Shown one piece after another: positions 24,549 to 38,005 of a stretch of 38,005 nt of DNA (positions are counted from its first letter, which is position 1; each line of letters opens with the position of its first letter). The position numbers and the translations under genes were made by a program. Where the stretch lies: NCBI GenBank assembly GCA_021775495.1, contig JAJFHT010000145.1:1-38005 (forward strand), written 5' to 3'. The notes under the pieces were generated by a model. That model did not search any database. It worked only from the letters and a program-made list of their open reading frames with translations, and was not told where the DNA came from. Source of the DNA: Hyphomicrobiales bacterium (GTDB taxonomy: Bacteria; Pseudomonadota; Alphaproteobacteria; Rhizobiales; Rhizobiaceae).

Positions 24549-25757
24549 ATGTGTTCGCATGATCAAATTTCAGAAATCGATAAAACCGCGGAACCGATCG
24601 ACGTGAATATGCGGGAATCACTGACTATTGAAGATCTGCGGAGGCGCGCGCAACGGCGCGTTCCGCGCATGTTTTACGACTATGTCGAAGCCGGTTCGTG
24701 GAGCGAGTCGACACGTGACGCCAACATCGCAGACCTTGCGGACATTGTTTTTCGCCAACGCGTTGCCGTGGACATCTCAACCCGTGACCTGACGGCCAAT
24801 ATGCTGGGTCAGGAATTCAGCTTGCCGATCGGTCTCGCCCCGGTTGGGCTGACCGGCATGCAGTACCCGGATGGGGAAATCCACTCCGCACAGGCTGCCA
24901 AAGCGGCCGGTATTCCCTATGTCCTGTCCTCCATGAGCGTTTGCTCGATTGAGGATGTGGCATCAACCGTTCGATCTCCATTCTGGTTCCAGCTTTATGT
25001 GATGCGTGATCGCGGGTTCACGGAAGGCCTGATCAGTCGCGCCGAGGCGGCCGGCTGCAAGGTGCTTGTGTTGACCCTCGATCTCCCGATTATGGGGCAG
25101 CGCCACGCGGATATTCGCAATGGTCTCGGCAGCAAAGGGATATCAGTGCGCAATCTGCTCAACGTTGCAACAAAGCCACAATGGCTGGCGGGAATCCTGC
25201 GGACAAAACGCCGGAGCCTGGGCAATCTGGTTGGCCACGTCGACGGTGTGGATGATGCCGCCTCGCTGCGGGAGTGGGTCGGTAAGCAGTTCGATCCCTC
25301 GCTTGACTGGGACGATGTCGCAGCGTTTCGCGCCCGCTGGCCGGGCAAGCTCGTGCTGAAGGGCATACTGGACGAAGATGATGCCCGGCAGGCAGCTGAT
25401 ATAGGTGCCGACGCGATTATCGTTTCCAATCATGGCGGGCGGCAACTTGATGGCGCGCCGTCCTCCATATCAGTCCTCCCGTCGATTGTTGCGGCGGTCG
25501 GCAATCGGGTGGAGGTCTATGTCGACGGCGGCATACGCAGCGGCCAGGATGTCCTCAAAGCGCTTTCTCTTGGTGCACGGGCCGTTTTTGTCGGTCGGGC
25601 TTATACCTATGGGCTTGGCGCTGGAGGCCGAGCCGGCGTGGACAGAGCGATTGAGATTCTCAAAAACGAACTCGACCAGTCGATGGCTTTGACAGGTAAT
25701 CTGTCCGCCCGACGGATTGATTCCAAGACTATCTTTGCGCGCGGTCACCGCGCATAG
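24549..25757 (+). CDS. FMN-dependent alpha-hydroxy-acid oxidase/dehydrogenase (LldD-like)
   Basis: A 402-residue member of the L-lactate dehydrogenase / glycolate oxidase family, which oxidises L-2-hydroxy acids with FMN. Family segments are LTIEDLRRRAQRRVPRMFYDYVEAGS, LPIGLAPVGLTGMQYPDGEIHSAQAAKAAGIPYVLSSMS, PFWFQLYVMRD, VLTLDLPIMGQRHADIRNG, LVLKGILDEDDARQAADIGADAIIVSNHGGRQLDGAPS (with the catalytic histidine) and VYVDGGIRSGQDVLKALSLGARAVFVGR. The start is uncertain: ATG 24549 has AGGA unusually close, while ATG 24609 would remove a nonconserved leader of 20 residues. It is divergent from the LacI-type gene and convergent with the deoR gene. The substrate is unknown; lactate, glycolate or a sugar-acid are possible. 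Confidence 0.88.
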   Translation: MCSHDQISEIDKTAEPIDVNMRESLTIEDLRRRAQRRVPRMFYDYVEAGSWSESTRDANIADLADIVFRQRVAVDISTRDLTANMLGQEFSLPIGLAPVGLTGMQYPDGEIHSAQAAKAAGIPYVLSSMSVCSIEDVASTVRSPFWFQLYVMRDRGFTEGLISRAEAAGCKVLVLTLDLPIMGQRHADIRNGLGSKGISVRNLLNVATKPQWLAGILRTKRRSLGNLVGHVDGVDDAASLREWVGKQFDPSLDWDDVAAFRARWPGKLVLKGILDEDDARQAADIGADAIIVSNHGGRQLDGAPSSISVLPSIVAAVGNRVEVYVDGGIRSGQDVLKALSLGARAVFVGRAYTYGLGAGGRAGVDRAIEILKNELDQSMALTGNLSARRIDSKTIFARGHRA

Positions 25758-25764
25758 GCTGCGC

Positions 25765-26547
25765 TCACTCGGGCTCAGATTGGTTTGTCGGCATCCCGGC
25801 GATGGTCAACCGCGTTCCGGCGTTTTGCATGGCTTCGGTAATGGCTTTTGGTGATTGACGGTCGGTTATCAATTCATTGAATCCGAGGAAACCGGTGACA
25901 TTGATCAGTCCGCGCCGGCCGAATTTGGTGTGGTCGGTCACCACGATCTTCCGTTCTCCGCAGGATAGCACCATGCGGGCAAATTCGGATTCTTCGAGGT
26001 CGAAATCCATCACGCCCTCGACATTGACAGCGCCGGCAGAAATGACCGAATGCACGACGGCGAAGCGACTGATGAAATCAATCGCCGAATTGCCGAATGC
26101 GGCGCCTGAATCGCTTCTCAGTTCACCTCCGGCCATGTAGACGCGGTTGCCGTTGACCGAGACAAGTGTGTGAGCAATGTCCGAGGAATTGGTAATCACC
26201 GTCAATCGCTGATGCTTCATCAGTTCACGGGCAACGAAACTTGTCGTTGTGCCGGTGTCGAGCATGACGGAATCACCATTACGGATGGTGGAGGCGAGAT
26301 GCCGGGCGATGGCTTTCTTGGCCGTGGCGTTCTCTCGCATCCGGCGTTGAAAGGGAGCCTCCCCAAATTGCCCGGCGAGGCCGACAGCACCGTGTATCTT
26401 GAGCACTGAGCCGTTTTCCGTCAGCGGTTTCATGTCCCGCCGAACCGTTTCCAACGAAACATCGAGCCGTTTTGCCAGGGCGGATATCGTGACGGTCCCT
26501 TCCATGTTCAGGATGCGCAGGATTTCCGTATGGCGTTTGGACAGCAT
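25765..26547 (-). CDS. DeoR/GlpR-family transcriptional regulator
   Basis: A 260-residue DeoR-type regulator with the N-terminal helix-turn-helix KRHTEILRILNMEGTVTISALAKRLDVSLETVRRDMKPL. The sugar-phosphate-isomerase-like sensor domain shows NGDSVMLDTGTTTSFVARELMKHQRLTVITNSSDIAHTLV, VYMAGGELRSDSGAAFGNSA and ERKIVVTDHTKFGRRGLINV. Members usually repress a neighbouring operon and are released by a phosphorylated metabolite. The gene is divergent from the betaine-type transport operon (233 nt gap), the natural target. The gap contains phased CACA-type repeats beside a promoter-like sequence. It is convergent with the hydroxy-acid oxidase. Confidence 0.92.
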   Translation of the reverse strand: MLSKRHTEILRILNMEGTVTISALAKRLDVSLETVRRDMKPLTENGSVLKIHGAVGLAGQFGEAPFQRRMRENATAKKAIARHLASTIRNGDSVMLDTGTTTSFVARELMKHQRLTVITNSSDIAHTLVSVNGNRVYMAGGELRSDSGAAFGNSAIDFISRFAVVHSVISAGAVNVEGVMDFDLEESEFARMVLSCGERKIVVTDHTKFGRRGLINVTGFLGFNELITDRQSPKAITEAMQNAGTRLTIAGMPTNQSEPE

Positions 26548-26609: not shown

Positions 26610-26648
26610 CACAAATTCGGGCATAAAATACACAAATTGCCACATTCG
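26610..26648. promoter_or_regulatory. Helically phased CACA(AA)TT repeats, candidate DeoR-family operator
   Basis: CACAAATT occurs at 26610-26617 and 26631-26638, 21 bp apart (two helix turns), and a shorter relative, CACATTCG, starts at 26641, a further 10 bp on. They lie immediately upstream of a TTGACA box in the gap between the deoR gene and the transport operon. DeoR-family proteins often use such direct repeats. This reading is inferred from position and phasing. Confidence 0.45.
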
Positions 26649-26652
26649 ACGA

Positions 26653-26682
26653 TTGACAGCCCCCAACTTCCCAAGCGTTAAT
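26653..26682 (+). promoter_or_regulatory. Promoter candidate for the transport/flavoenzyme operon
   Basis: A perfect -35 box TTGACA (26653-26658) is followed after 18 nt by GTTAAT (26677-26682), a moderate -10 match. It would start transcription about 90 nt before the binding-protein gene, directly downstream of the phased repeats. Confidence 0.4.
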
Positions 26683-26780: not shown

Positions 26781-27755
26781 ATGAAAGCAATTCACCGCAG
26801 TACAACACGGTTTGTCGCCGGACTTGCAGCATCGGCCATTGCCCTCGCAGCAGGTGCCTTTTCTGCAACAGCACAGGAGTCGACCGACCCCATCAAGCTG
26901 ACACTCCATGACTGGACCGGCCAGTTGATCACCACACAGCTTATGGGCGAGGTGCTGAAAAAGGCCGGCTACAATATTGAATATGTGCAAGCTGACTATC
27001 TTGCCCAGTTCGCCGGACTTCAGACCGGCGACCTGAGTGTGGCAATGGAAATGTGGGAAACCACCGGCCGCGACGCGATGGATGCAGCAACGGCCACCGG
27101 CAAGGTGGAGAACTTCGGCGCGACGGGAATGAAGGCCAAGGAAGAGTGGTGGTATCCGTCCTACATGAAAGAAAAATGCCCGGGCCTGCCCAATTGGAAA
27201 GCACTCAAGGAAGCATCCTGCGCGGAAGCTTTCTCTACGGCCGAAACCGCACCCAAGGGACGATATCTTGGCGGACCGGTGACTTGGGGCGGGTTTGACG
27301 ACGAACGCGCTGAAGCACTCGACCTTCCGTTTGAAGTGATTCATGCCGGAACCGATGCCGCTCTGTTTGCCGAACTTGAAAGTGCCTATCAGCGAAAAGC
27401 GCCTATCCTGCTTTGGATCTATGCACCGCATTGGGCACCAGCCAAATATGAGGGCGAGTGGGTCGAATTCCCGGAATATTCCGCGGATTGCTACAATGAT
27501 CCTGCATGGGGCTCGAACGCGGATATGGCGTATGATTGTGGCAAGCCGTTCGGTGAAATCTGGAAAGTCGGCTGGTCTGGCGTGAAGGACAAGTGGCCAG
27601 GTGCGCACAAAGCCATCAAGGCGTTTACGATCAATAATGACGAAATGGGAGCGATGATCACTTCCGTCGATCTGGACGGCAAGAAAGTGGATGAGGTTGT
27701 GGCTGAATGGATCGGCGCAAATGAAAGCCGCTGGATGAAGTGGATCGCCAAATAG
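26781..27755 (+). CDS. Glycine betaine/proline-type ABC substrate-binding protein
   Basis: A 324-residue periplasmic solute-binding protein of the OpuAC family. A signal peptide ends near FSATAQ. The mature protein begins IKLTLHDWTGQLITTQLMGEVLKKAGYNIEYV, then LSVAMEMWETTGRD, KEEWWYPSYM, LLWIYAPHWAPAKYEGEWVEFP and WSGVKDKWPGA. The several tryptophans are suited to the aromatic cage that holds quaternary amines by cation-pi contacts. Four cysteines in two close pairs may form disulfides. The start at ATG 26781 has AGGGA about 7 nt upstream. It is the first gene of the operon; the substrate is probably betaine, choline or another methylated amine, not defined by sequence. Confidence 0.93.
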   Translation: MKAIHRSTTRFVAGLAASAIALAAGAFSATAQESTDPIKLTLHDWTGQLITTQLMGEVLKKAGYNIEYVQADYLAQFAGLQTGDLSVAMEMWETTGRDAMDAATATGKVENFGATGMKAKEEWWYPSYMKEKCPGLPNWKALKEASCAEAFSTAETAPKGRYLGGPVTWGGFDDERAEALDLPFEVIHAGTDAALFAELESAYQRKAPILLWIYAPHWAPAKYEGEWVEFPEYSADCYNDPAWGSNADMAYDCGKPFGEIWKVGWSGVKDKWPGAHKAIKAFTINNDEMGAMITSVDLDGKKVDEVVAEWIGANESRWMKWIAK

Positions 27756-27762
27756 CGTAAAA

Positions 27763-27829
27763 CGAGAATTCTGAATTGGCCGCCGCAGCACCGCAGTGAA
27801 GCAGCGGCCATTTCAACCCCGAATTCTCG
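27763..27829 (+). promoter_or_regulatory. Large intercistronic stem-loop after the binding-protein gene
   Basis: CGAGAATTC (27763-27771) pairs perfectly with GAATTCTCG (27821-27829). Directly inside, 27772-27783 pairs with 27804-27815 over 12 positions with one mismatch, leaving a 5-nt bulge on the 3' side and a 20-nt loop. It lies between the binding-protein stop and the ATPase start. In other ABC operons such hairpins protect the binding-protein message and lower downstream expression; that role is inferred here. No U-run follows, so full termination is unlikely. Confidence 0.75.
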
Positions 27830-27842
27830 ATCCTCTGAGGCA

Positions 27843-28865
27843 ATGATGTCGTCGCCCGAAGCCAAACTGGTTTGTCGTAATATATGGAAATTGTTCGGGC
27901 ACCGCGCCGCTGAAAAACTCAGCGAAATGGGCGGCAATCCTTCGCTTGAGGATATTTCGGCGGCCGAGCTGGTCAGTGCGGTTCGAAACGTCGACCTGAC
28001 GGTCAATGAGGGCGAAATCTTCGTGATCATGGGCCTTTCCGGATCCGGAAAATCAACTCTGGTTCGCTGCCTTTCAAGGCTGGTGGAGCCGACGGCGGGC
28101 GAGATTCTGTTTCACGGCACCAATCTTCTTGCGGCGACCGAAACAGAGATGATCGAAATTCGCCGGCACAAGATGGGAATGGTCTTTCAGCATTTTGCGT
28201 TGCTGCCGCATATGACCGTCCTGAACAACGTCGCATTCCCGCTGGAAATTCAGGGGATCGGTCGAGACGAACGGGAACACCGTGCCCGGGACATGATCAC
28301 GCTTGTCGGACTTGCAGGGCGGGAGGATTCCTACCCACGCGAATTGTCAGGTGGTCAGCAGCAGCGGGTTGGAATCGCCCGGTCGCTGGCTGTCGAACCG
28401 GAATTATGGTTCCTCGATGAGCCGTTTTCGGCACTTGATCCGCTGATCCGCCGGGAAATGCAGGATGAATTTATCAGGCTTCAGTCGGTTTTGAAGAAAA
28501 CCATCGTGTTCATCACCCATGATTTCGATGAGGCGATACGGCTGGCTGACCGGATCGCGATCATGAAGGACGGGGAGATCGTCCAATCCGGAACGCCGGA
28601 GGACATCGTGCTTAATCCGGCCACCGACTATGTCGAGGAATTCACCCGTGCGGTGCCGCGCGCCAAGGTCGTTCGGGTCGCATCGGTTATGAAACCGGCG
28701 AGCGGAGGGGCTCCGGAAAAGGAAGTGTCCGACCGCTCGACGGTTTCCGATGCAGCAGCGTTGTTCCTCGATGGAGCCGAACGGCTGCGGGTGAACAGCG
28801 CTGATGGCTCCTTAGTCGGCATATTACACAAATCAGATGTTGTCGATCTGATGCTCAGGGGCTGA
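27843..28865 (+). CDS. Glycine betaine/proline-type ABC transporter ATP-binding protein
   Basis: A 340-residue ABC ATPase of the ProV/OpuAA type on the cytoplasmic side of the membrane. Residues 20-45 are the ProV-typical leader before the core. The core has Walker A GLSGSGKST (64-72), the Q-loop in MVFQHFALLPHMTV, the signature LSGGQQQR (168-175), Walker B WFLDEP (D192, E193) and the H-loop histidine H226 in FITHDFDEA. The C-terminal 60 residues (SDRSTVSDAAALFLDGAERLRVNSADGSLVGILHKSDVVDLML) look like one degenerate CBS unit, shorter than the pair in E. coli ProV. It is 2 nt upstream of the permease. Confidence 0.94.
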   Translation: MMSSPEAKLVCRNIWKLFGHRAAEKLSEMGGNPSLEDISAAELVSAVRNVDLTVNEGEIFVIMGLSGSGKSTLVRCLSRLVEPTAGEILFHGTNLLAATETEMIEIRRHKMGMVFQHFALLPHMTVLNNVAFPLEIQGIGRDEREHRARDMITLVGLAGREDSYPRELSGGQQQRVGIARSLAVEPELWFLDEPFSALDPLIRREMQDEFIRLQSVLKKTIVFITHDFDEAIRLADRIAIMKDGEIVQSGTPEDIVLNPATDYVEEFTRAVPRAKVVRVASVMKPASGGAPEKEVSDRSTVSDAAALFLDGAERLRVNSADGSLVGILHKSDVVDLMLRG

Positions 28866-28867
28866 TC

Positions 28868-30892
28868 ATGTCTGAATTGCCCGATGCCAAAATTCCGACG
28901 CAAGCCCAAGCTGTTTGGCGCAATGGTGCGTTTGGTCTTGGATTGGCCATTATCTGCTTTGTGCTGTTCTCGACCTATGGAAAATCACTCGCACCATGGG
29001 CATTTTCCTTTCCGAAGACTCAGACATTTCCTGTCGCACGCTGGATCAGTCAGTTCACCAAATGGCTGATCAATGACGCCACGTTCGGGCTCTTTACCTT
29101 CACCGATCTGACCCGATTTATCGCTGCGGTTATTGATTTACCCTATCAGATCGCTCTCAGCCTGTTCGCTACCGGTTTCATGTCGGGACCCGGATCGAGC
29201 GCGGTGCAATTGCTGCCTCCGATCTCCTGGATCGCAGTGATCGCGATTGTCGGCCTGATGGGATTTTACATTGGCGGTCGCCGGCTCGCGCTAGTGGTTG
29301 CTTCCTGTTTTGTCTTTATCGCTGTTTTCGGACAGTGGACAAGCGCGATGGTTACATTGGCCTCCATTTTGGTTGCCGTGCCGCTTGGGATTGCCGGCGG
29401 CCTTTTTCTCGGAATAGGAGCCTATCGCTGGAAATGGCTTGAGCGCGCTTTGCTGCCGCTACTCGATCTGATGCAGACCATCCCGGTTTTCGCCTATCTG
29501 GTGCCGATCCTTTTTCTGTTCGGGTTTGGCGCGACGGCGGCGGTTGTCGCCACTTTGATCTACGCCATGCCGCCAATGACACGGGTGACCATGCTTGCCT
29601 TGCAACGCGTCATGCCGGAGGTGCGTGATCTCGGCAACATGATCGGATGTACGCGTCGCCAGATGATGTGGCGCGTGCTTTTACCTTCGGCGAAGGAAAG
29701 CCTGATGGTCGGTGTGAACCAGGTGATCATGCTGTCGTTGAACATGGTGATCATCGCATCGATGATCGGCGCCGGAGGCCTCGGGTTTGATGTGCTGGCA
29801 GCCTTGCGGCGACTGGATTTCGGGGCGGGGCTGGAAGCCGGCCTGGCCATCGTGGCGCTGGCGATTGCTCTCGATCGTTTGAGTCAGGCCTTTGCCGGCA
29901 GTTCTGCCGCGACGGGAAACCGGTCATCACGCGGCCTCATTGCCCGCCATCCATATTTGGCGGCTTCGTTTTTGGTCGTGATTGTTTCCGGATTTCTTGG
30001 ATTGGCTTTCCCGGCGGTACAGTCCTATCCGGAGATGTTGCAGATATCGACCGGTACATTCTGGTCGCAGGTCGTCAAATGGATAAACGTCAATTTCTTC
30101 GACGCCCTTGAGGCGTTCAAGAACACGCTGCTCCTCAACATACTCATACCGTTCAAGCGACTGCTTCTCGGCCTGCCGTGGGCTGGGGTGGTGGTATTCC
30201 TTGCGATATCGGGTTGGTTGTTGCGCGGTCCGAAGCTGGCATTGCTCACCGGGGCGCTGAGCTTTTTGATCGCTGCAACCGGGCAGTGGGAAAAGGCGAT
30301 GATTACGGTCTACCTCTGCGGAATTTCGGTGCTGTTCGCCGCACTTATCGGCATCCCGATTGCCATTATGGCAGCTGAACGGGATCGATTGTGGGGGTGG
30401 GTGCGCCTTGCCATCGATACACTGCAGACGCTGCCATCCTTCGTCTACCTCATGCCTGCGGTGATGTTGTTTCGGGTTGGCGATTTCACCGCGATGATCG
30501 CCGTGGTGGCCTATTCAGTTGCGCCGGCCATTCGCTACACCGTTCTCGGTATTCAAGGGGTTGATCCGCGCCTGGTTGAGGCAGGCCGGGCAATGGGCTG
30601 TACGAACCTGCAACTGTTGACCCGCATCAAGCTGAAATTGGCGCTCCCGGAAGTATTGCTGGGTCTGAACCAGACGATCATGTTCGCGCTGTCGATGCTG
30701 GTGATTACCGCGCTTGTCGGGACCCGCGACCTTGGACAGGAGGTCTATATCGCCCTGACCAAGGCGGATCCCGGGCGGGGGCTTGTGGCAGGTCTGGCGG
30801 TGGCTTTCATAGCGATCATCGCGGACCGGCTGATTTCGGCCGGCGCTTTCAGGGCGCGCGCACGGCTTGGCTTGCAGGAGGGAGCACAGTGA
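28868..30892 (+). CDS. Fused double permease of the betaine-type ABC transporter
   Basis: A 674-residue inner-membrane permease that is two ProW/OpuAB-like units in one chain. Unit one (about 1-345) carries the ATPase-contacting EAA loop EVRDLGNMIGCTRRQMMWRVLLP. Unit two (about 350-674) carries LVEAGRAMGCTNLQLLTRIKLKLALP. Each unit has the MQTIPVFAYLVPILFLFG or LQTLPSFVYLMPAVMLFR segment and a VNQVIMLSLNMVIIASMIG or LNQTIMFALSMLVITALVG helix just after its EAA loop. A standard transporter uses two copies of a roughly 280-350 residue subunit, so this fusion builds the whole channel. Its stop overlaps the GTG start of the next gene (GTGA). Confidence 0.92.
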   Translation: MSELPDAKIPTQAQAVWRNGAFGLGLAIICFVLFSTYGKSLAPWAFSFPKTQTFPVARWISQFTKWLINDATFGLFTFTDLTRFIAAVIDLPYQIALSLFATGFMSGPGSSAVQLLPPISWIAVIAIVGLMGFYIGGRRLALVVASCFVFIAVFGQWTSAMVTLASILVAVPLGIAGGLFLGIGAYRWKWLERALLPLLDLMQTIPVFAYLVPILFLFGFGATAAVVATLIYAMPPMTRVTMLALQRVMPEVRDLGNMIGCTRRQMMWRVLLPSAKESLMVGVNQVIMLSLNMVIIASMIGAGGLGFDVLAALRRLDFGAGLEAGLAIVALAIALDRLSQAFAGSSAATGNRSSRGLIARHPYLAASFLVVIVSGFLGLAFPAVQSYPEMLQISTGTFWSQVVKWINVNFFDALEAFKNTLLLNILIPFKRLLLGLPWAGVVVFLAISGWLLRGPKLALLTGALSFLIAATGQWEKAMITVYLCGISVLFAALIGIPIAIMAAERDRLWGWVRLAIDTLQTLPSFVYLMPAVMLFRVGDFTAMIAVVAYSVAPAIRYTVLGIQGVDPRLVEAGRAMGCTNLQLLTRIKLKLALPEVLLGLNQTIMFALSMLVITALVGTRDLGQEVYIALTKADPGRGLVAGLAVAFIAIIADRLISAGAFRARARLGLQEGAQ

Positions 30893-31776
30893 CCGCAATG
30901 GATAGAATTGCAGAACTGCCTTGCTGGTACGGCGAGATAACCAGCGAGCCGCTGACCGGAGGGCTTTCAAATGAAAGCTGGCTGGTTACAGACACCAACG
31001 GAAAACATGTCGTGCGGTTTGGCAGTGACTACCCGTTTCATCATGTGTTTCGGGATCGCGAAGTCATGGTTGCCAAGGCAGCGCATTCGGCCGGTTTCGC
31101 CCCCGAAGTGGAACACGCCGAACCTGGAATAATGGTTTCGGCCTTCCTTGATGCGCGCACCTGGACACCTGAAGATATGCGCGCCGAGCCAGAGCGCATC
31201 GGCGGTTTGCTGCTGGATTTTCACAATCAGATGCCGGAAGAGATTTCGGGTGCAGGTTTCATGTTCTGGGTATTCCATGTCATCCGCGACTATGCCCGTA
31301 CGCTGGATGCGGGCAACAGCAGACATATGCCGCAGGTGCCCGCTTATCTGGAAACAGCATCAGAGCTTGAAGTTGCGCAAGTTCCGATGCCGATCATATT
31401 CGGCCACAATGACCTGCTTCCCGGAAACATACTCGATGACGGTGAGCGGCTGTGGCTGATCGATTTCGAATATGCGGGTTTTTCGACCGGCATGTTCGAT
31501 CTTGCCGGTGCCGCATCCAATGCCGGAATGAATGATGGCGAAGCGCTGCGGCTGCTGTCGAGCTATTTCGGGCATCACCCAGTCAAAGAGCAATTGCGTG
31601 CGTTCGACGCCATGCAATGCGCATCGCTGCTGCGCGAGGCAATGTGGGCAATGGTATCCGAGATCCACCTCAATGCGCCCGGCGTCGACTACGCGGCCTA
31701 CGCGCAGGAAAATCTCGAGCAGCTGACAATCTCTCTCGATCACTATCATTCAAAGCACGGAAAGACCGCCTCATGA
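30889..31776 (+). CDS. Choline-kinase-like phosphotransferase (APH family), copy 1
   Basis: A 295-residue cytosolic kinase of the aminoglycoside phosphotransferase / choline kinase fold. It has LTGGLSNESWLV (nucleotide loop), VVRFGSD (strand with the ATP-binding region), the catalytic loop FGHNDLLPGN (H173, D175, N180) and the metal-binding IDFEYAG (D192). LicA-type choline kinases and ethanolamine kinases share these motifs. The start is GTG at 30889, overlapping the permease stop, with GGAGGGA just upstream. Position between a betaine-type transporter and dimethylglycine dehydrogenase-like enzymes suggests phosphorylation of an imported amino-alcohol, but the substrate is not shown. It overlaps the next gene by 4 nt. 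Confidence 0.86.
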   Translation: MTAMDRIAELPCWYGEITSEPLTGGLSNESWLVTDTNGKHVVRFGSDYPFHHVFRDREVMVAKAAHSAGFAPEVEHAEPGIMVSAFLDARTWTPEDMRAEPERIGGLLLDFHNQMPEEISGAGFMFWVFHVIRDYARTLDAGNSRHMPQVPAYLETASELEVAQVPMPIIFGHNDLLPGNILDDGERLWLIDFEYAGFSTGMFDLAGAASNAGMNDGEALRLLSSYFGHHPVKEQLRAFDAMQCASLLREAMWAMVSEIHLNAPGVDYAAYAQENLEQLTISLDHYHSKHGKTAS

Positions 31777-34211
31777 CCCTTCCCGAACGCGCCGAGATCG
31801 TTGTTATCGGCGGCGGCATAATCGGTTGTTCGACTGCCTATCACCTGGCGCGTGATCACAAGGCAGATGTTGTGCTTCTGGAGCAGGGAAAACTGACATC
31901 CGGCTCCACCTGGCACGCTGCCGGCCTCGTCGGTCAGTTGCGCTCCTCCGCCTCGATCACACGGGTGCTGAAATATTCGGTCGATCTTTACAAACAGCTC
32001 AAATCGGAAACCGGCCTGGAGACGGGCTGGAAAATGTCCGGATGCCTGCGTCTTGCCACCAATCAGGATCGCTGGACGGAATATCGCCGACTGGCGACGA
32101 CGGCACGCAGTTTTGGCATGGAGATGCACCTGCTTTCACCGGAGGAAGTGAAGGCGATGTGGCCGCTGATGGATGTTGCCGATCTGGTTGGAGCAAGCTG
32201 GTTGCCGACCGACGGGCAGGCGAGCCCTTCCGACATCACCCAATCGCTTGCCAAGGGCGCGCGCATGCATGGTGCAAAACTGCACGAGGGGGTTGAGGTC
32301 ACAGGATTTGATCTCACTGGTGGCAGAATAACCGCCGTGCGGACCAGCAAGGGCAATATTGCCTGCGAAAAGGTCGTCAATTGCGCCGGTCAATGGGCGC
32401 GCCAGGTTGGTGCCATGGCCGGCATCAATGTGCCGCTTCAGCCGGTTAAACATCAATACATCATTACCGAGACCATTCCGGGTCTTGCGACGGATGCGCC
32501 GACAATCCGCGATCCGGACAGACGGACTTATTTCAAGGAGGAAGTCGGCGGATTGGTGATGGGGGGCTACGAGCCGAACCCGCAGGCCTGGACCATGGAT
32601 GACGTTCCCAGTGAATGGGAATTCCGGTTGTTTGATGATGATTTCGACCATTTCGAACAGCATATGGAACAGGCCATGGCCCGTATTCCTGCGCTGGCGG
32701 ATGCCGGCGTCAAGCAGATGATCAACGGTCCGGAGAGTTTCACGCCGGACGGCAATTTTATCATGGGCGCTGCTCCGGAATGTTCCAATATGTTTGTTGG
32801 AGCGGGCTTCAATGCCTTCGGAATAGCGGCAGGTGGCGGTGCCGGCTGGGTGCTGGCGGAATGGGTGGCGTCCGGGGAGGCACCGCTTGATCTGTGGGTT
32901 GTTGATATTCGGCGGTTTTCCAACCTGCACAGGGACCGGCAATGGGTCTGCGACCGGACGCTGGAGGCGTATGGCAAACATTACACGATCGGTTTTCCGC
33001 ACGAGGAATATGAAAGCGGCCGCCCCAGTATTGTTTCGCCGCTTTTTGAACGGCTGAAATCGCACCGCGCGGTCTTCGGATCAAAGCTCGGATGGGAGCG
33101 ACCGAACTGGTTTGCGCCGGAAGGAATGGAGGCACGGGACGTATACTCCATGGGCCGCCAGAACTGGTTTGGTCCCGTGGGTAATGAGCACCGGCATGTT
33201 CGTGAAAAAGTTGGCGTGTTCGACCAATCCTCCTTCGCCAAATATGAGCTGACGGGCGCTGATGCGTCGAAGGCGCTTGACTGGATCTGCGCCAATGATG
33301 TGACCAAGCCGACCGGCAGGCTCACATATTCCCAGCTTTTAAACAGCCGCGGCGGCATTGAAGCGGATCTGACAGTTGCCCGGATTTCCGAGGACAAATT
33401 CTATATCGTTACCGGCACCGGCTATCGCACTCACGATCAGGCGTGGATTGCAGATCATCTGCCCGAGGGGGATCTCGTTCTGACCGATATCACCGAGGAT
33501 TGGGGTACATTGTCCCTGATGGGACCGCTGGCACGCGAGGTACTGTCAAAGGTGACCGACGCAGACGTCAGCAATTCCGGCTTCCCGTTTGGGCATGTGA
33601 AAGAAATCAATATTGCCGGTCACATGGTTCGTGCATTGCGTGTCACCTATGTTGGTGAACTCGGCTGGGAACTGCATGTTCCGATTGGTGCGACCGGCAG
33701 CGTTTTTGACGCGTTGATGACTGCAGGCGCGGAACAGGACATCCGACCGGTTGGCTATCGCGCCATAGAGAGCCTGCGGCTGGAGAAGGGCTATCGTGCC
33801 TGGGCCTCCGACATAACGCCGAATGATACGCCATTCGAGGCCGGCCTGGGCTGGGCTGTGAAAATGCGGAAGAATACATCCTTCATGGGGCGTCCGTCAC
33901 TTGAAGCGGTTTCCGGTCAGCCGCTGACCAAACGCCTTGCTGGTTTCACCGTAGACGATCCCGATGCGGTTTTGCTCGGCCGCGAAACAATCCTGCGAAA
34001 CGGTGAATTTGCCGGGTACCTGACGTCGGGAGGCTACGGATACACCATCGGCAAGGGCATCGGCTACGGATATGTGCGCAACGAAACAGGCGTCAGTGAT
34101 GACTATCTGGCCGCCGGCACCTACGAGCTTGTGGTTGCGAATGAAAACGTGCCGGCACTGATCGGGATGACTGCCTTCTTCGACCCGTCCAATGCACGGA
34201 TCAGGACTTGA
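31773..34211 (+). CDS. Dimethylglycine/sarcosine dehydrogenase-like flavoprotein, copy 1
   Basis: An 812-residue two-part enzyme. Residues about 1-370 are a DAO-type FAD domain with VVIGGGIIGCSTAYHLA and STWHAAGLVGQLR; H48 aligns with the histidine that binds FAD covalently in dimethylglycine dehydrogenase. A central FAO_M region follows. From about residue 470 a GcvT-like folate-binding domain appears: VGVFDQSSFAKYELTG, LNSRGGIEADLTVARI (acidic residue placed as in GcvT), VTYVGELGWELHVP and GYRAIESLRLEKGYRAW. Such enzymes oxidatively remove N-methyl groups and pass formaldehyde to tetrahydrofolate. The ATG at 31773 overlaps the kinase stop. The substrate is unknown; see copy 2. Confidence 0.92.
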   Translation: MTLPERAEIVVIGGGIIGCSTAYHLARDHKADVVLLEQGKLTSGSTWHAAGLVGQLRSSASITRVLKYSVDLYKQLKSETGLETGWKMSGCLRLATNQDRWTEYRRLATTARSFGMEMHLLSPEEVKAMWPLMDVADLVGASWLPTDGQASPSDITQSLAKGARMHGAKLHEGVEVTGFDLTGGRITAVRTSKGNIACEKVVNCAGQWARQVGAMAGINVPLQPVKHQYIITETIPGLATDAPTIRDPDRRTYFKEEVGGLVMGGYEPNPQAWTMDDVPSEWEFRLFDDDFDHFEQHMEQAMARIPALADAGVKQMINGPESFTPDGNFIMGAAPECSNMFVGAGFNAFGIAAGGGAGWVLAEWVASGEAPLDLWVVDIRRFSNLHRDRQWVCDRTLEAYGKHYTIGFPHEEYESGRPSIVSPLFERLKSHRAVFGSKLGWERPNWFAPEGMEARDVYSMGRQNWFGPVGNEHRHVREKVGVFDQSSFAKYELTGADASKALDWICANDVTKPTGRLTYSQLLNSRGGIEADLTVARISEDKFYIVTGTGYRTHDQAWIADHLPEGDLVLTDITEDWGTLSLMGPLAREVLSKVTDADVSNSGFPFGHVKEINIAGHMVRALRVTYVGELGWELHVPIGATGSVFDALMTAGAEQDIRPVGYRAIESLRLEKGYRAWASDITPNDTPFEAGLGWAVKMRKNTSFMGRPSLEAVSGQPLTKRLAGFTVDDPDAVLLGRETILRNGEFAGYLTSGGYGYTIGKGIGYGYVRNETGVSDDYLAAGTYELVVANENVPALIGMTAFFDPSNARIRT

Positions 34212-34215
34212 GCTG

Positions 34216-36636
34216 ATGCCGTATCACGCCGACCGCCATGCACGAATTGTCATCATCGGGGCTGGTGCAATCGGCTGTTCTCTTGCCTACCATCTTGCCC
34301 GGGCCGGCGAAAAGGACGTGCTTGTTCTCGAAAAAGCACAGATCACCCATGGCAGCACATGGCATGCCGCCGGTCTGGTCGGCCAGCTTCGTGGCAAGCG
34401 CTCGCTGACCCAATTGATGCAGAATTCTGTGGCTGTCTTTGACCGGCTTGCAGATGAAACCGGGCAGGCTACCGACTGGAAGAAAGTCGGTTCACTGCGC
34501 CTGGCGTCCAGTGATGTGCGTTGGAGCGAAATCCGACGCTCAATGCAGTTGGCCAAGAGTTTCGGATTTGAATGTCACGGGCTGAGCGCAGGCGAAGCCA
34601 AAGACAGGTTTCCCCATATCGATCCAGAGGGAGTTGTTGGCGCGGCATTCATTCCCTCTGATGGCTATATCGACCCTTACGCTCTGACCCAGTCATTCGC
34701 TTCCGCCGCGCGCCAGCATGGTGCAAGGATCGAAGAAGGGGTTTGTGTCAAAGACATTGTTACTGAAAACCGAAGGGCACTCGGCGTGGTGACCGATCAC
34801 GGTACAATCGGGTGCGATATCCTGGTCAATTGTGCTGGACTCTGGGCCAGGCGCATCGGTGAGATGGCCGGCGTGCCGCTTGCTGCCGGGGTGGTGGAAC
34901 ATCAGTATTTCATTACCGAAAAAGGCCTGGATCTGCCGGCCGATCTTCCGACCCTGCGTGATCCGGACAAGAACTTCTACCTGAAGCCGGATGTCGGTGG
35001 CGCCTTTGCCATCGGCGGCTGGGAAGACGGAACAAATGGCTGCTGGAACCAACTGGCGCCATTTGAGTTCGGACGGCAGCTGTTTCCGGCAAATATGGAC
35101 AGGCTTGAACGATTTGCGCTGCCGGCAGCAGAACGACTGCCGGTATTGAACGAGATCGGTATCCGCACCACGATCAACGGCCCCATACCGGTTTCAGCCG
35201 ATGGTGAACCGATTATGGGACAGGCTCCCGAACTGGACAATTTTTATGTCGCCTGCGGGTTTACCGCCGGCATCGCCGCGTCGGGCGGAGCAGGCGAAGC
35301 GATGGCCAACTGGATCGTTCATGGAGACCCGGGTCTCGATCTCTGGTCATTCGATACACGGCGCTTTGGGAAGCCACACGCACAGGCCCAATATCTCGAA
35401 CAACGGGCAATCGAAGCCTATGGAGCCTACTACAAGGTTCACTGGCCGGCTGAGGAATCTCATGTGGGCAGGGGCCTGCGCCGGTCTCCACTTCATACAT
35501 TGCTTGCCGCCGCCGGCGCGCAATTCGGCTCCAAGTTTGGCTGGGAGCGGGCAAACTGGTTTGATAGCCAGGATATTTCTGCATCCGAAACACCGAGTTT
35601 TGAAGCCAAACCCGGATGGTCTGATGCTGTTGCAGCGGAAACCAGAGCGATCCGCGAGCGTGTGGCGTTGATCGATCAGACATCATTTTCCAAATACGAG
35701 ATCACCGGACCCGGTGTTCAGGAGGCATTGAACCGCATCGCGGCGAGCGACCTGTCCGGCCAGCCGGGCCGCGCGGTCTATTCGCAATTGTGCAACCCGA
35801 ATGGCGGGATCGAAGCTGACCTTACATTCATTCATGTTGAACCAGATCGTTTTCTGATGGTCACCGGCTCGGGTTTTGGCGTGCGTGACGCAACTTGGGT
35901 GAGGCGACACCTTCCAGATGATGTCATGCTTCGCGAACTGACTGGAGCCTATGCCGTGCTCAACATTTGCGGGCCCAAATCGCGCGAGGTCCTGCAATCC
36001 GTCAGCGGGCAGGATCTGTCAAACCCGGCGTTTCCGTTTCTGGCCGCCCGCCACAACGATGTCGGTCTTGCATCTGTATTGGCGGTACGCGTTGGATATG
36101 TCGGTGAATTGGGGTGGGAACTCTATATTCCTCAAGAATATGCAGCACATGTCTACGAGACCCTGAAGCAAGCGGGTGAACCTTTGGGGATCGCCGATGC
36201 CGGATATCGCGCCATCGAAAGCTGCCGGCTGGAGAAGGGTTATCTATACTGGTCCGCCGACATCACTCCGGACACCAGCCCTTACGAGGCAGGTCTCGGA
36301 TTTGCGGTGGCGCTGGACAAGGCCGACTTCATCGGACGTGATGCTTTGATCAAGGTGAAAATAGAAGGCGTAACCCGCCGTCTTGTCACTTTGACAGTAG
36401 ACGGTTTCGCGCCTTTCCACAGCGGCGAAACGATTCTTCATGGCGGTCAGCCGGTGGGGTCGCTTTGCAGTGCAGGCTACGGCCATTATCTCGGAAAGAC
36501 CATTGGTTTTGGATATTTACCCATTGATCTTAACAAAGAAGACGAGATCGGTATTGAAGCTTTTGGCAAAACCTATCCGGCGAAACGCGGTCCGCGCTGT
36601 CTCTATGACCCAACGATGGAAAGGCTGAAATCATGA
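34216..36636 (+). CDS. Dimethylglycine/sarcosine dehydrogenase-like flavoprotein, copy 2
   Basis: An 806-residue paralogue of the preceding gene with the same architecture: FAD domain with IVIIGAGAIGCSLAYHLAR and STWHAAGLVGQLR (H50 aligned with the covalent-FAD histidine), central FAO_M region, and GcvT-like folate domain (VALIDQTSFSKYEITG, CNPNGGIEADLTFIHV, VGYVGELGWELYIP and GYRAIESCRLEKGYLYW). It starts at ATG 34216, 4 nt after copy 1. The similarity is clear end to end but many positions differ, so the two copies have probably specialised, for example on successive methyl groups or on different amines, or as unlike subunits of one complex. Its stop overlaps the next gene by 4 nt. Confidence 0.92.
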   Translation: MPYHADRHARIVIIGAGAIGCSLAYHLARAGEKDVLVLEKAQITHGSTWHAAGLVGQLRGKRSLTQLMQNSVAVFDRLADETGQATDWKKVGSLRLASSDVRWSEIRRSMQLAKSFGFECHGLSAGEAKDRFPHIDPEGVVGAAFIPSDGYIDPYALTQSFASAARQHGARIEEGVCVKDIVTENRRALGVVTDHGTIGCDILVNCAGLWARRIGEMAGVPLAAGVVEHQYFITEKGLDLPADLPTLRDPDKNFYLKPDVGGAFAIGGWEDGTNGCWNQLAPFEFGRQLFPANMDRLERFALPAAERLPVLNEIGIRTTINGPIPVSADGEPIMGQAPELDNFYVACGFTAGIAASGGAGEAMANWIVHGDPGLDLWSFDTRRFGKPHAQAQYLEQRAIEAYGAYYKVHWPAEESHVGRGLRRSPLHTLLAAAGAQFGSKFGWERANWFDSQDISASETPSFEAKPGWSDAVAAETRAIRERVALIDQTSFSKYEITGPGVQEALNRIAASDLSGQPGRAVYSQLCNPNGGIEADLTFIHVEPDRFLMVTGSGFGVRDATWVRRHLPDDVMLRELTGAYAVLNICGPKSREVLQSVSGQDLSNPAFPFLAARHNDVGLASVLAVRVGYVGELGWELYIPQEYAAHVYETLKQAGEPLGIADAGYRAIESCRLEKGYLYWSADITPDTSPYEAGLGFAVALDKADFIGRDALIKVKIEGVTRRLVTLTVDGFAPFHSGETILHGGQPVGSLCSAGYGHYLGKTIGFGYLPIDLNKEDEIGIEAFGKTYPAKRGPRCLYDPTMERLKS

Positions 36637-37535
36637 CGGATTGGCTGGTTGAAGCGCAAAAGGCTATTGCGGATATTCCCTTGCTCCACGGGGCCGGTAC
36701 ACCGCAGCGGCTCGGCGGGCTGACCAATCTGGTATTCCGGGTCGGAGACTTTTGCCTGCGCATTCCGGGCAAAGGGACTGAGGAATACATCAACCGCGCT
36801 CATGAGGAGGCGGCGGCGCGTGAGGCAGCCCGTGCTGGAGTCAGCCCGGAAGTGCTACATTTCGATATATCCAGCGGCATCATGGTGACCCGCTTTGTCG
36901 ACGGTGCGATAACCATGACGCCGGAGGGTTTTCGCGACCGGGCAGGTTCTCCAGCAAGGGCAGGTGAGGCGCTGCGGCGCCTGCATGCGTCTGACGCGGT
37001 GTTCCCGTTTCGGTTCGAACTGTTCGCGATGATCGATGACTACCTGTCGATCCTTTCAACCAAGGATGTTGCGTTGCCTGACGGCTATCATGATGTCGTG
37101 GCCGAAGCAGAAGCCATACGCACCGTATTGAAACGCCGCCCCGTACTGGAGACGGCGTGCCATTGCGATCCGCTTTGTGAAAATTTTCTCGATCTCGATA
37201 CGCGTATGTGGATCGTTGACTGGGAGTATTCCGGCATGAACGATCCGATGTGGGATCTCGGCGATCTCTCGGTCGAGGGCGGGTTTGACGAAGCGCAGGA
37301 TGAAGAGATGCTCGGAGCCTATTTCAACGGTGATATTCCGAATGCGGACCGGGGCCGTATGGTCATCTACAAGGCAATGTGCGACCTGCTCTGGACCCTC
37401 TGGGGCCTGATTCAACTGGCTAACAACAATCCGGTTGACGATTTCCGTGCATATGCAGATGGCCGTTTTGCACGATGTAAAACCCTGATGGCCGAACCGG
37501 AATTTGCCGTTCATATTCGTGCAGTAGAACGCTGA
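36633..37535 (+). CDS. Choline-kinase-like phosphotransferase (APH family), copy 2
   Basis: A 300-residue kinase related to LicA and choline/ethanolamine kinases. Segments include RLGGLTNLVFRVGDFCLRIPG (nucleotide loop and strand), IMVTRFVDGA (hinge), the catalytic loop CHCDPLCENF (H177, D179, N184) and the metal-binding VDWEYSGMNDPMWDLGDLS (D196). It closes the operon, overlapping the flavoenzyme stop by 4 nt. It is only distantly similar to copy 1, so the two kinases probably have different substrates. LicA relatives phosphorylate choline. Absence of a recognisable phosphocholine cytidylyltransferase nearby argues against simple surface phosphocholine decoration. Confidence 0.87.
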   Translation: MTDWLVEAQKAIADIPLLHGAGTPQRLGGLTNLVFRVGDFCLRIPGKGTEEYINRAHEEAAAREAARAGVSPEVLHFDISSGIMVTRFVDGAITMTPEGFRDRAGSPARAGEALRRLHASDAVFPFRFELFAMIDDYLSILSTKDVALPDGYHDVVAEAEAIRTVLKRRPVLETACHCDPLCENFLDLDTRMWIVDWEYSGMNDPMWDLGDLSVEGGFDEAQDEEMLGAYFNGDIPNADRGRMVIYKAMCDLLWTLWGLIQLANNNPVDDFRAYADGRFARCKTLMAEPEFAVHIRAVER

Positions 37536-37652: not shown

Positions 37653-38005
37653 ATGCGGAGTTCAGTGAAAACCACGGCGATGTTTGCCGCTTTGTGTCTG
37701 GTGATGTGGACCGCGAAAGCGGAATTCGCGGTGGCCGGCGAGGAATTGAATAAATCTGCCTATTGCGAACAGTTTGCCGAGGATATTGCGGCCAAAAACG
37801 CGCGTGAAATCGAATCCGGAATTGATCTGGACAGCGCACTAGCAGGTGCCGTGGAAGGCGTGATCCTCGGGGAAGTGATTGGCGGGCGCCGAAACACCCG
37901 CCGGGATGCTCGCGCAGGCGCCGCGATCGGAGCTGTTTCTGCAGGCATTGACTTCAGGCCACGTTTTGCCCGGATTTACCGCCGCGCTTTCGCCACCTGC
38001 ATGGC
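37653..38005 (+). CDS. Secreted glycine-zipper-like protein (3' end beyond window)
   Basis: An open frame starting at ATG 37653, with AAGGGA about 7 nt upstream, and continuing past the window end; 117 full codons are visible. A signal peptide covers about residues 1-29 (hydrophobic MFAALCLVMW, cleavage near AVAG). The mature part has a cysteine-bearing helix (SAYCEQFAEDIAAKNAREIESG), then alternating small residues (GAVEGVILGEVIGG and RAGAAIGAVSAGI) typical of glycine-zipper membrane-associating proteins, and a second cysteine near RAFATCM. It is separated from the upstream operon by 117 nt without a clear terminator. No specific family or function is assigned. Confidence 0.7.
   Translation, partial: MRSSVKTTAMFAALCLVMWTAKAEFAVAGEELNKSAYCEQFAEDIAAKNAREIESGIDLDSALAGAVEGVILGEVIGGRRNTRRDARAGAAIGAVSAGIDFRPRFARIYRRAFATCM

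Follow-up and report, generated by a model that had tools for sequence, protein, structure and literature searches.

A seven-gene operon with two kinase-flavoenzyme pairs, possibly for phosphate-first breakdown of N-methylated ethanolamines in Alphaproteobacteria

We analyzed a 38,005-nt stretch of DNA from a Hyphomicrobiales bacterium (assembly GCA_021775495.1, contig JAJFHT010000145.1, positions 1 to 38,005), hereafter called the window. At positions 26781-37535, seven plus-strand genes encode a TmoX-like substrate-binding protein (SBP), an ATPase, a fused permease, a kinase (KIN1), two flavoenzymes (FAD1 and FAD2) and a second kinase (KIN2). The operon is made of a transport system and two kinase-demethylase pairs, KIN1 with FAD1 and FAD2 with KIN2. 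On balance we favor, with modest confidence, an operon for the breakdown of a short N-methylated amino alcohol, of which N-methyl- and/or N,N-dimethylethanolamine is the likeliest. The features are as follows.

25765..26547, minus strand: DeoR/GlpR-family regulator (PF08220 and PF00455 above cut-off), divergent from the operon
26610..26645, no strand: operator-like conserved element with two CACAAATT-type repeats, in the gap between regulator and operon
26653..26658, plus strand: TTGACA, predicted candidate for a -35 box, just 3′ of the operator-like element
26781..27755, plus strand: SBP, periplasmic, OpuAC domain, TmoX-like (best PDB match 4xz6)
27843..28865, plus strand: ABC ATPase of betaine/proline/choline type (TIGR01186 proV, 358 bits; cut-off 326.6)
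28868..30892, plus strand: fused permease, two permease domains per chain (two PF00528, BPD_transp_1, stretches)
30889..31776, plus strand: KIN1, choline/ethanolamine-kinase-like (PF01633); GTG start, alternative ATG at 30898
31773..34211, plus strand: FAD1, predicted flavin/folate N-demethylase of the dimethylglycine dehydrogenase (DMGDH) type (DAO+FAO_M+GCV_T+GCV_T_C)
34216..36636, plus strand: FAD2, second flavin/folate enzyme of the DMGDH type (DAO+FAO_M+GCV_T+GCV_T_C); alternative ATG at 34192
36633..37535, plus strand: KIN2, choline-kinase-like, near Mesorhizobium loti 3dxq (phmmer E 2.6e-146)

A preliminary description of this DNA had listed seven co-directional genes in this order, and all the open reading frames were confirmed on the plus strand with Pfam domains. 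The tight packing that it described after the transporter was also confirmed: 4-nt overlaps are present at permease-KIN1, KIN1-FAD1 and FAD2-KIN2, and the gaps are 2 nt between ATPase and permease and 4 nt between FAD1 and FAD2 (34216 start). The SBP and ATPase genes are separated by 87 nt. Rhizobium rosettiformans (L165; L numbers are our locus labels) has the same order, in which a DeoR gene is followed by SBP-ATPase-permease-KIN1-FAD1-FAD2-KIN2. Because the same gene order recurs, as in this species, the operon is not a chance arrangement.

The distribution of KIN1 was surveyed at two levels. Among 297 genomes of the order (123 genera), KIN1 matches at E <= 1e-40 were found in 95 genomes and 46 genera. 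In the class survey, a KIN1 profile at E <= 1e-60 matched 42 of 385 genomes and 27 of 277 genera. We examined 129 KIN1 loci: 78 in a first set (order genomes and a Rhodobacteraceae-rich group), 40 from the class and 11 from plasmids. These neighborhoods cover 60 of the 94 other order genomes (best first, some skipped), 40 of the 41 other class genomes and 11 of the 19 plasmid records with KIN1; some class neighborhoods end early at contig ends. In 108 of the 129 loci, FAD1 was located at most 800 nt from KIN1 and on the same strand (68/78 in the first set, 29/40 in the class and 11/11 on plasmids). The kinase precedes the demethylase in 106 of these pairs and the order is reversed in two. A 4-nt KIN1-FAD1 overlap was observed in 34 of the 70 loci with both genes (first set and window, by our own gene calls). 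Rhodobacterales and small, AT-rich genomes of SAR11-like character also have the pair. Among the 129 kinase genes, identity reaches 95% in a single pair and 99% in none; the loci are phylogenetically non-independent. The preliminary description had made conservation of the gene block beyond this strain a point on which its proposal depended, and the linkage of kinase and demethylase extends far beyond it.

The other layers vary. Among the 108 pairs, an SBP homologue was found in 52 and KIN2 in 33, and stand-alone KIN1-FAD1 pairs exist (for example, L093, L095, L106, L110, L111 and L115). Because the other layers are less constant and some pairs stand alone, KIN1-FAD1 is regarded as the core. 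KIN2 was found in 39 of the 297 order genomes, 36 of which also possess KIN1. All 22 loci with a true FAD2 hold KIN2, and 12 of 34 KIN2 loci showed no FAD2. Since the genes form two pairs, KIN1 with FAD1 (sometimes alone) and FAD2 with KIN2, the alternative in the preliminary description that two substrates are used in parallel is retained.

KIN1 and KIN2 belong to the choline/ethanolamine kinase family. Both exceed the cut-offs of PF01633 (Choline_kinase; 61.7 and 57.3 bits, cut-off 29) and PF01636 (APH; 51.9 and 66.7 bits, cut-off 23.2), and they share 30% identity. The AlphaFold model of KIN1 (pLDDT 92.2) has choline/ethanolamine kinases as its nearest folds (Z 28.4 to 26.4 for the first seven), which include 3dxq, LicA and the Plasmodium and human enzymes; homoserine kinase (Z 23.0) and aminopropanol kinase 6ef6 (Z 19.8) are lower. 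The top NCBIfam model was that of the pre-guanitoxin N-oxide kinase GntI. The scores of KIN1 and KIN2 (120 and 145 bits) fell short of its cut-off of 357, and it was rejected.

In the available part of the structural account of LicA (PMC4364537), the choline pocket comprises Tyr197, Trp251, Trp254, Tyr268, Val178, Glu213, Thr29 and Asp176. These positions were transferred to KIN2 by eye from the 3dxq-search alignment. Seven of these eight residues are invariant in 35 of 35 KIN2 sequences, and Val178 is Leu in all of them. From these residues, KIN2 is predicted to possess a choline-kinase pocket. In KIN1, Asn replaces Glu213 in 124 of 126 sequences and Val or Ile replaces Trp254 in 122. Asp176 is kept, together with Trp251 (126/126), Tyr197 (123/126) and Tyr268 (109/126, His in the other 17). 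Judged by the same published residues, KIN1 would not have a choline-kinase pocket, and we assign it to the kinase family and not to the choline kinases. Because the KIN1 pocket is reduced by Asn and Val/Ile, a less bulky, less charged or different amine is expected.

Several relatives of KIN1 were seen in other settings. In L083, L084, L086 and L089, the kinase gene is found without FAD1 and adjoins genes of the molybdenum-hydroxylase type, and in the first three of these loci kynureninase-like genes were seen as well (by eye). The substrate of these kinases is perhaps a different compound. L050 and L052 possess KIN1 and a DeoR gene without FAD1, and L050 lies near a dimethylarginine dimethylaminohydrolase-like gene (by eye).

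FAD1 and FAD2 are 43% identical and have the architecture of DMGDH and sarcosine dehydrogenase, namely the domain order DAO-FAO_M-GCV_T-GCV_T_C with the flavin-attachment His motif. The best PDB match for FAD1 is DMGDH 4p9s (558 bits), and FAD2 is likewise closest to mammalian dimethylglycine dehydrogenase. Their GSTWHAAG motif aligns with that of mammalian DMGDH, and its His, which we take to be the flavin-bearing residue, is kept in 108/108 FAD1 and 21/21 FAD2 sequences. FAD is probably bound covalently in both enzymes. The pair H227 and Y253, found in 108/108 FAD1 sequences, is presumably equivalent to the active-site pair of dimethylglycine oxidase (DMGO). A Gln-Leu-Arg motif (GQLR, R57) after the flavin motif is present in 30 of 30 kinase-linked enzymes and in the two phosphonate-linked enzymes described below. 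It is missing in DMGDH, in which YFH is aligned at this place, and in three unlinked paralogues; the other sister-group paralogues have Arg in two cases and Gln in one. We regard R57 as a candidate phosphate-binding residue and no more.

Flavin amine oxidation, which requires a lone pair, is unable to take a methyl group off a quaternary amine, and choline was excluded as a direct substrate of FAD1 and FAD2. A GCV_T domain was found at 21 places in the genome of the window, many of which lie in frames of at least 800 residues. This is a large set of demethylase-like genes, mostly without an assigned role.

The plasmid collection gives a separate view of the linkage. The KIN1 search returned 19 records and the FAD1 search 164. 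The top 19 FAD1 records (at least 58.9% identity, among the best 60 of 164) are the same 19 as those of KIN1. In the next FAD1 records (at most 50.8% identity; best 60 of 164), KIN1 was not found at E 1e-40. These results bear on the idea of ordinary betaine-type catabolism, in which FAD1 and FAD2 would be dimethylglycine and sarcosine dehydrogenases and the kinases would serve separately, in making phosphocholine for lipids or surface. The best solved relatives of both flavoenzymes are DMGDH and DMGO and the transporter is of the betaine/choline type, as this idea would have it. Nevertheless, the demethylase tracks the kinase in 19 of 19 plasmid records while the records of its next paralogues (within the best 60 of 164) lack KIN1, KIN1-FAD1 pairs stand alone, and two members of the FAD1 sister group adjoin phosphonate genes. 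We consider it improbable.

The preliminary description had called the transporter betaine-type. This holds at the family level: the ATPase matches the proV model as listed above, and the fused permease scores 398 bits against TIGR03416 (choline permease; cut-off 363), spread over two stretches of the chain. However, the SBP is closest to a binding protein for trimethylamine N-oxide (TMAO), and its pocket is changed. In the PDB search, 4xz6 gave E 1.8e-72 and the runner-up E 6e-14. The entry 4xz6 is TmoX of Ruegeria pomeroyi, and the available part of its description gives the TMAO pocket as Trp55, Trp102, Phe106, Glu131, Trp177, Phe220 and Trp222 (PMC8918994). These residues were mapped to the SBP by eye from the PDB-search alignment. 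W51, W98, E127, W175, W218 and Y220 are present in 56 of 56 SBP sequences, window included. At G102, the position of Phe106 in TmoX, 52 sequences have Gly and four have Ala. Judged by these published positions, the SBP would not have the pocket of TmoX: Trp55, Trp102, Glu131 and Trp177 are kept, and Phe106 is replaced by Gly/Ala, Phe220 by Trp and Trp222 by Tyr. Because the Trp cage and the acid are retained and one bulky wall is lost, a methylated amine that is larger than TMAO and bears a polar oxygen is expected.

An operon for TMAO or another simple methylated amine, with kinases that act on a side product, would agree with the closeness of the SBP to TmoX and with the four retained equivalents. 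In contrast, the three replacements, constant in 56 of 56 sequences, suggest a larger ligand, and TMAO has no hydroxyl group to phosphorylate. Furthermore, the TMAO demethylase model NF053776 gives FAD1 and FAD2 143 and 178 bits against a cut-off of 1100. This explanation is very improbable.

Evidence on a phosphorus group comes from relatives of FAD1. From the plasmid FAD-GcvT genes that rank closest to FAD1 outside the kinase-linked set, we examined two, from Aminobacter aminovorans (L225, 6989-9466) and Sinorhizobium meliloti (L226, 6989-9466). Both are 3′ of a DeoR gene and a few genes 5′ of phnW, which in S. meliloti is part of phnW-phnA-phnY. In the midpoint-rooted FAD tree, FAD1 has as its sister group (support 1.0) these two enzymes, two paralogues from the genome of the window and one enzyme from L150, and FAD2 branches outside. 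N-methyl-aminoethylphosphonate, reportedly common in nature according to the part of the source available (PMC10590968), is the P-C analogue of phospho-N-methylethanolamine; the aminoethylphosphonate class is the phosphonate analogue of phosphoethanolamine. The phosphonate-linked enzymes are candidate N-demethylases of N-methyl-aminoethylphosphonate, with a reaction that would be unlike that of PbfC/PbfD.

The genome of the window has a second operon of related content on contig 15 (L215, 14735-18994), with the order aldehyde dehydrogenase (ALDH), phospho-lyase, kinase and FAD-GcvT, and 4-nt overlaps at lyase-kinase and kinase-FAD. Its phospho-lyase scores 402 bits to 5g4i and 361 bits to the human ethanolamine-phosphate phospho-lyase 6tor, and the next family is at 210 bits. 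The best PDB match of its kinase is 6ef6, titled 'aminopropanol kinase' (123 bits). A phospho-lyase linked to the kinase is thus present in the contig 15 operon and not in the window operon. Outside the window operon, contig 15 thus provides an independent case in which a kinase, an N-demethylase and a phospho-amine lyase are coupled. By analogy, this coupling is the strongest sign that phospho-amines may be real intermediates. Relatives of the lyase-kinase genes that lack an adjoining FAD gene occur in Ruegeria pomeroyi and also in Rhizobium and Agrobacterium, where their neighbor is the hpa aromatic operon. Because of the adjacent hpa operon, an octopamine/synephrine-type substrate is possible for the contig 15 operon.

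These observations also bear on the possibility that the same kinase-demethylase logic serves another N-methylated amino alcohol (1-methylamino-2-propanol, a synephrine-like aromatic or a hydroxylated betaine derivative), with one pair for each of two substrates. The match of the contig 15 kinase to 6ef6, the hpa operon beside its lyase-kinase relatives, the altered choline cage of KIN1 and the presence of two complete pairs in the window operon would all fit such a compound. However, the choline pocket of KIN2 is nearly complete, and EutH or gamma-glutamyl-ethanolamide-type genes adjoin KIN1-FAD1 in a few relatives. We judge this possibility to be rather unlikely.

The genes near KIN1-FAD1 in relatives, whose identities were partly assigned by eye, are informative on the later steps. 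In Salipiger abyssi plasmid pPABY1, genes for an inositol-monophosphatase-family protein (IMPase) and DeoR are followed by SBP-ATPase-permease-KIN1-FAD1. After FAD1 come electron transfer flavoprotein (ETF) beta, a 'FAD-binding protein' (taken as ETF alpha), FolD, PurU and N-formylglutamate amidohydrolase. The run continues with a glutamine synthetase (GS) family gene, ALDH, Fe alcohol dehydrogenase (Fe-ADH), serine hydroxymethyltransferase (SHMT), serine ammonia-lyase and HAD. Read as a pathway, this run would transfer methyl groups to methylene-tetrahydrofolate with ETF as the acceptor, and convert ethanolamine to glycine via gamma-glutamyl-ethanolamide, as in a Phaeobacter operon used for comparison (PMC10132767, seen in part). 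Glycine and a C1 unit may then give serine and finally pyruvate.

Parts of this set were observed elsewhere. The GS-like/ALDH/Fe-ADH run is directly 5′ of KIN1-FAD1 in L101 and L108; GS-like and amidohydrolase genes are near the pair in L101, L108, L162 and L164, and all four genes of the gamma-glutamyl-ethanolamide route (GS-like, ALDH, Fe-ADH and amidohydrolase) are in L101 and L164. In Shinella HZN7, an amidohydrolase, an RpiR regulator and a GS-family gene are just 5′ of the operon, and a metal/formaldehyde-type repressor is 3′ of FAD1. EutH is directly 3′ of FAD1 in Nitratireductor OM-1 and L126, where a window-type ABC transporter was not found before KIN1. An IMPase gene is 3′ of FAD1 in Ruegeria THAF33 and AD91A. 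Three 1.4-Mb genomes, SAR11-like in size (L148, L152 and L153), have ETF matches close to the pair; L148 and L152 are also SAR11-like in their 32% GC and have an ETF:quinone-oxidoreductase-like gene (by eye). ALDH and phospho-lyase genes are near the pair in L090.

Other neighbors were noted. In L152, a GMC oxidoreductase gene is 5′ of the binding protein gene. A LysR gene recurs beside the operon in L047, L051, L055 and L059-L063, loci from two different families, with a polyamine-type binding protein in most of these loci and ABC/ALDH genes in some. L042, L048, L059-L064, L067 and L162 have, between FAD1 and KIN2, an opposite-strand gene for a class I S-adenosylmethionine (SAM)-dependent methyltransferase; FAD2 was not found at that place in these loci. 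In the window, the 5′ part of another plus-strand open reading frame with a signal-like N-terminus is at 37653-38005, and the contig ends inside it.

We compared the 108 KIN1-FAD1 windows with 40 control windows, all from first-set contigs, for 17 markers by one-sided uncorrected Fisher tests with thresholds that we set; the marker queries were partly taken from the KIN1 loci themselves. IMPase was found in 13/108 windows and 0/40 controls (p = 0.013; 12/107 and p = 0.0185 without the query's own locus), and the methyltransferase in 10/108 and 0/40 (p = 0.038; 9/107 and p = 0.052 without the source locus). No marker was significant after correction for the 17 markers in this comparison. Non-significant markers, given as counts in the 108 and the 40 windows, were GS-like (4 vs 1), amidohydrolase (4 vs 2), Fe-ADH (3 vs 1) and its ALDH (2 vs 1); ETF (4 vs 0), EutH (2 vs 0), FrmR (3 vs 0), HAD (3 vs 0) and RpiR (3 vs 0); and FolD (2 vs 0), PbfA (2 vs 0), PurU (1 vs 0) and phospho-lyase (1 vs 1). 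SHMT and serine ammonia-lyase gave 0 vs 0. When the source loci were removed, the counts were 1/105 for GS-like, 1/105 for amidohydrolase, 2/106 for Fe-ADH, 0/107 for phospho-lyase and 1/107 for EutH; three of the four GS-like loci are query sources. Statistical enrichment of an ethanolamine operon was not found, and control window L197 itself has GS-like, amidohydrolase, ALDH and Fe-ADH matches. The basis for assigning ethanolamine is therefore chemistry and the gene order of a few loci rather than enrichment.

When queries were taken from outside this set of loci, genes for a Na/Pi cotransporter were found near KIN1 in six loci, all in the Rhodobacteraceae-rich group, and phn genes in three loci (L047, L051 and L147) against 0/40 controls. 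Two further candidates were set aside. A class-III aminotransferase cluster (seven loci), considered as a shared phospho-lyase, consisted of mixed aminotransferases, among which PbfA was recognized only in L047 and L051. Phospho-lyase and KIN1 co-occur in genomes (38/59 vs 57/238, p = 1e-8), but relatedness and genome size act as confounders and this result was not used as proof; for phospho-lyase and KIN2 there was no co-occurrence in genomes (p = 0.39).

The neighbors also bear on an anabolic or salvage role, in which the kinases would supply phospho-amino alcohols for making lipids or surface structures, while the demethylases and the SAM methyltransferase would tune the methylation of the head-group precursor. 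In its favor, 10 of the 108 windows have the methyltransferase gene between FAD1 and KIN2; five of the ten loci are from one genus. On the other side, the uptake system and the ETF, FolD/PurU, SHMT and serine ammonia-lyase neighbors (Salipiger) point to breakdown, and no cytidylyltransferase was recognized in the gene tables, which were read by eye with no dedicated search. We consider an anabolic role quite improbable.

The regulatory region is conserved in part. A DeoR homologue is present in 65 of the 108 KIN1-FAD1 loci (tblastn E <= 1e-20). The word AAATTCGGGCATAAAA (from 26613) was matched in 21 of 43 other DeoR-operon gaps with at most 4/16 mismatches on either strand, and the best word in five letter-shuffled control sets matched three to five gaps. 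Nineteen other gaps were aligned on the forward strand with the operator-like element, and of the 20 aligned rows, 17 show a TTGAC-type box 3′ of it (by eye). A phosphorylated inducer is typical of the DeoR family, and by analogy the DeoR protein of the window may respond to one. The adjacent gene at 24549-25757, convergent with the DeoR gene, encodes an FMN-dependent L-lactate dehydrogenase-like protein (417 bits to NCBIfam NF008398, cut-off 376) and lies outside the conserved unit.

We propose the following pathway for a catabolic operon of N-methylated short amino alcohols. The TmoX-like ABC transporter, judged from its pocket, would import the substrate, most likely N-methyl- and/or N,N-dimethylethanolamine. 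KIN1 and KIN2, from their family and pocket residues, would phosphorylate the hydroxyl group with ATP. FAD1 and FAD2, whose domains were observed, would then oxidize the N-methyl groups of the phospho-compound; each C1 unit would be transferred to tetrahydrofolate in the GcvT domain and the electrons probably to ETF. The product would be phosphoethanolamine or a close relative. As the neighbors in other genomes suggest, an unlinked phosphatase may hydrolyze it or a phospho-lyase may cleave it, after which the C2-N skeleton would enter ethanolamine breakdown. The two pairs may divide the work by methylation state or by substrate, and the DeoR protein may sense the phosphorylated intermediate. 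We infer the substrate, the order of steps and the fate of the product. The kinase-then-demethylase logic is fairly probable, and the ethanolamine series as the substrates is credible at slightly under even chances. More tentatively, the operon may represent a widespread aerobic 'phosphate-first' pathway, in which kinases make O-phosphates of N-methylated ethanolamines and two DMGDH-like clades demethylate the phospho-amines, with the phosphate as an acid handle like the carboxylate of glycine-type substrates. The import, phosphorylation and folate-linked demethylation suggested in the preliminary description thus gain from a kinase-demethylase linkage far beyond the strain, while the substrate and the phosphate requirement stay at the level of proposals.

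Several points weigh against this proposal. KIN1 is without two cage residues of choline kinases (Glu213 and Trp254 in the published LicA pocket). FAD1 is missing within 800 nt in 21 of the 129 KIN1 loci. These loci do not cluster together in the kinase tree: eight belong to the most divergent kinases, close to the KIN2 root, six share one clade with two paired loci, and the remainder are scattered. In L109, FAD1 is on the far side of the transporter. Two full pairs per operon exceed the needs of a single linear route. Choline would need a different first step because its quaternary methyl groups are inaccessible to flavin oxidation. The IMPase enrichment fails correction for the 17 markers, and five of the 13 IMPase loci are from one genus. 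The ethanolamine-operon markers are rare near KIN1-FAD1 and not above control (108 vs 40 windows), and the window operon has no phosphatase, phospho-lyase or ethanolamine gene.

If the proposal is correct, it gives a job to two enzyme groups that many genomes label no more precisely than 'choline/ethanolamine kinase family protein' and 'FAD-dependent oxidoreductase', and a suggested function to the structural-genomics entry 3dxq. Roughly one in three of the genomes sampled from the order of the window would carry the pathway kinase. There would be an added sink for mono- and dimethylethanolamine, which methylated phospholipids are expected to yield, and choline-type head groups would have a further route beside oxidation to betaine and trimethylamine lyase. 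Phosphate, nitrogen and one-carbon metabolism would be linked, and phosphorylation before N-demethylation would have arisen at least twice, with unlike demethylases. In the open-licence PMC literature, judged from result listings, we recognized no description of this gene set. To our knowledge, the order of phosphorylation before demethylation is known only from one very different gut bacterium.

The closest precedent is the MthK/MthBCA system of Eubacterium limosum (PMC12155760). In the part of this account available, choline kinase acts first, phosphocholine and not choline is demethylated, and the methyl group is transferred to tetrahydrofolate. This is a published exception to the statement in the preliminary description that choline phosphorylation is normally not for catabolism. 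As in our loci, the kinase and demethylase genes co-localize in many genomes; there, a corrinoid system of the MttB superfamily acts on a quaternary amine in an acetogen (PMC12155760). In contrast, the window operon has a flavin/GcvT fusion, which would accept only tertiary or secondary amines, in Alphaproteobacteria. In Pfam, no MttB-type model was matched by any protein of the operon.

An amino alcohol kinase/amino-alcohol-O-phosphate phospho-lyase route is said to operate in Erwinia, and lyase structures are available (5g4i and 6tor). There too, the kinase acts on the free amino alcohol before breakdown of the C2-N unit, and contig 15 has this set with an FAD-GcvT gene. Unlike this route, the window operon has no phospho-lyase, and only one of the 108 windows, the query's own (L090), has one. 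Dimethylglycine dehydrogenase/oxidase (4p9s, 5l46 and 1pj5) resembles the flavoenzymes in domain order, flavin motif, the His/Tyr pair and, in some loci, ETF-type neighbors; in contrast to DMGDH, FAD1 is linked to kinases and has GQLR (R57) where DMGDH has YFH. TmoXVW and DmpXWV, in the published parts compared (PMC8918994, PMC10030565), share with the window transporter an OpuAC binding protein and a Trp cage with an acidic residue. However, three of the seven listed TmoX pocket positions are changed in 56/56 sequences and the window permease is a two-domain fusion. Finally, PbfC/PbfD, according to the part of the account available (PMC10590968), cleave the other C-N bond, release methylamine and bind FAD non-covalently, but they resemble the proposed system in that FAD enzymes act on an N-methyl C2 amine with a phosphorus acid group.

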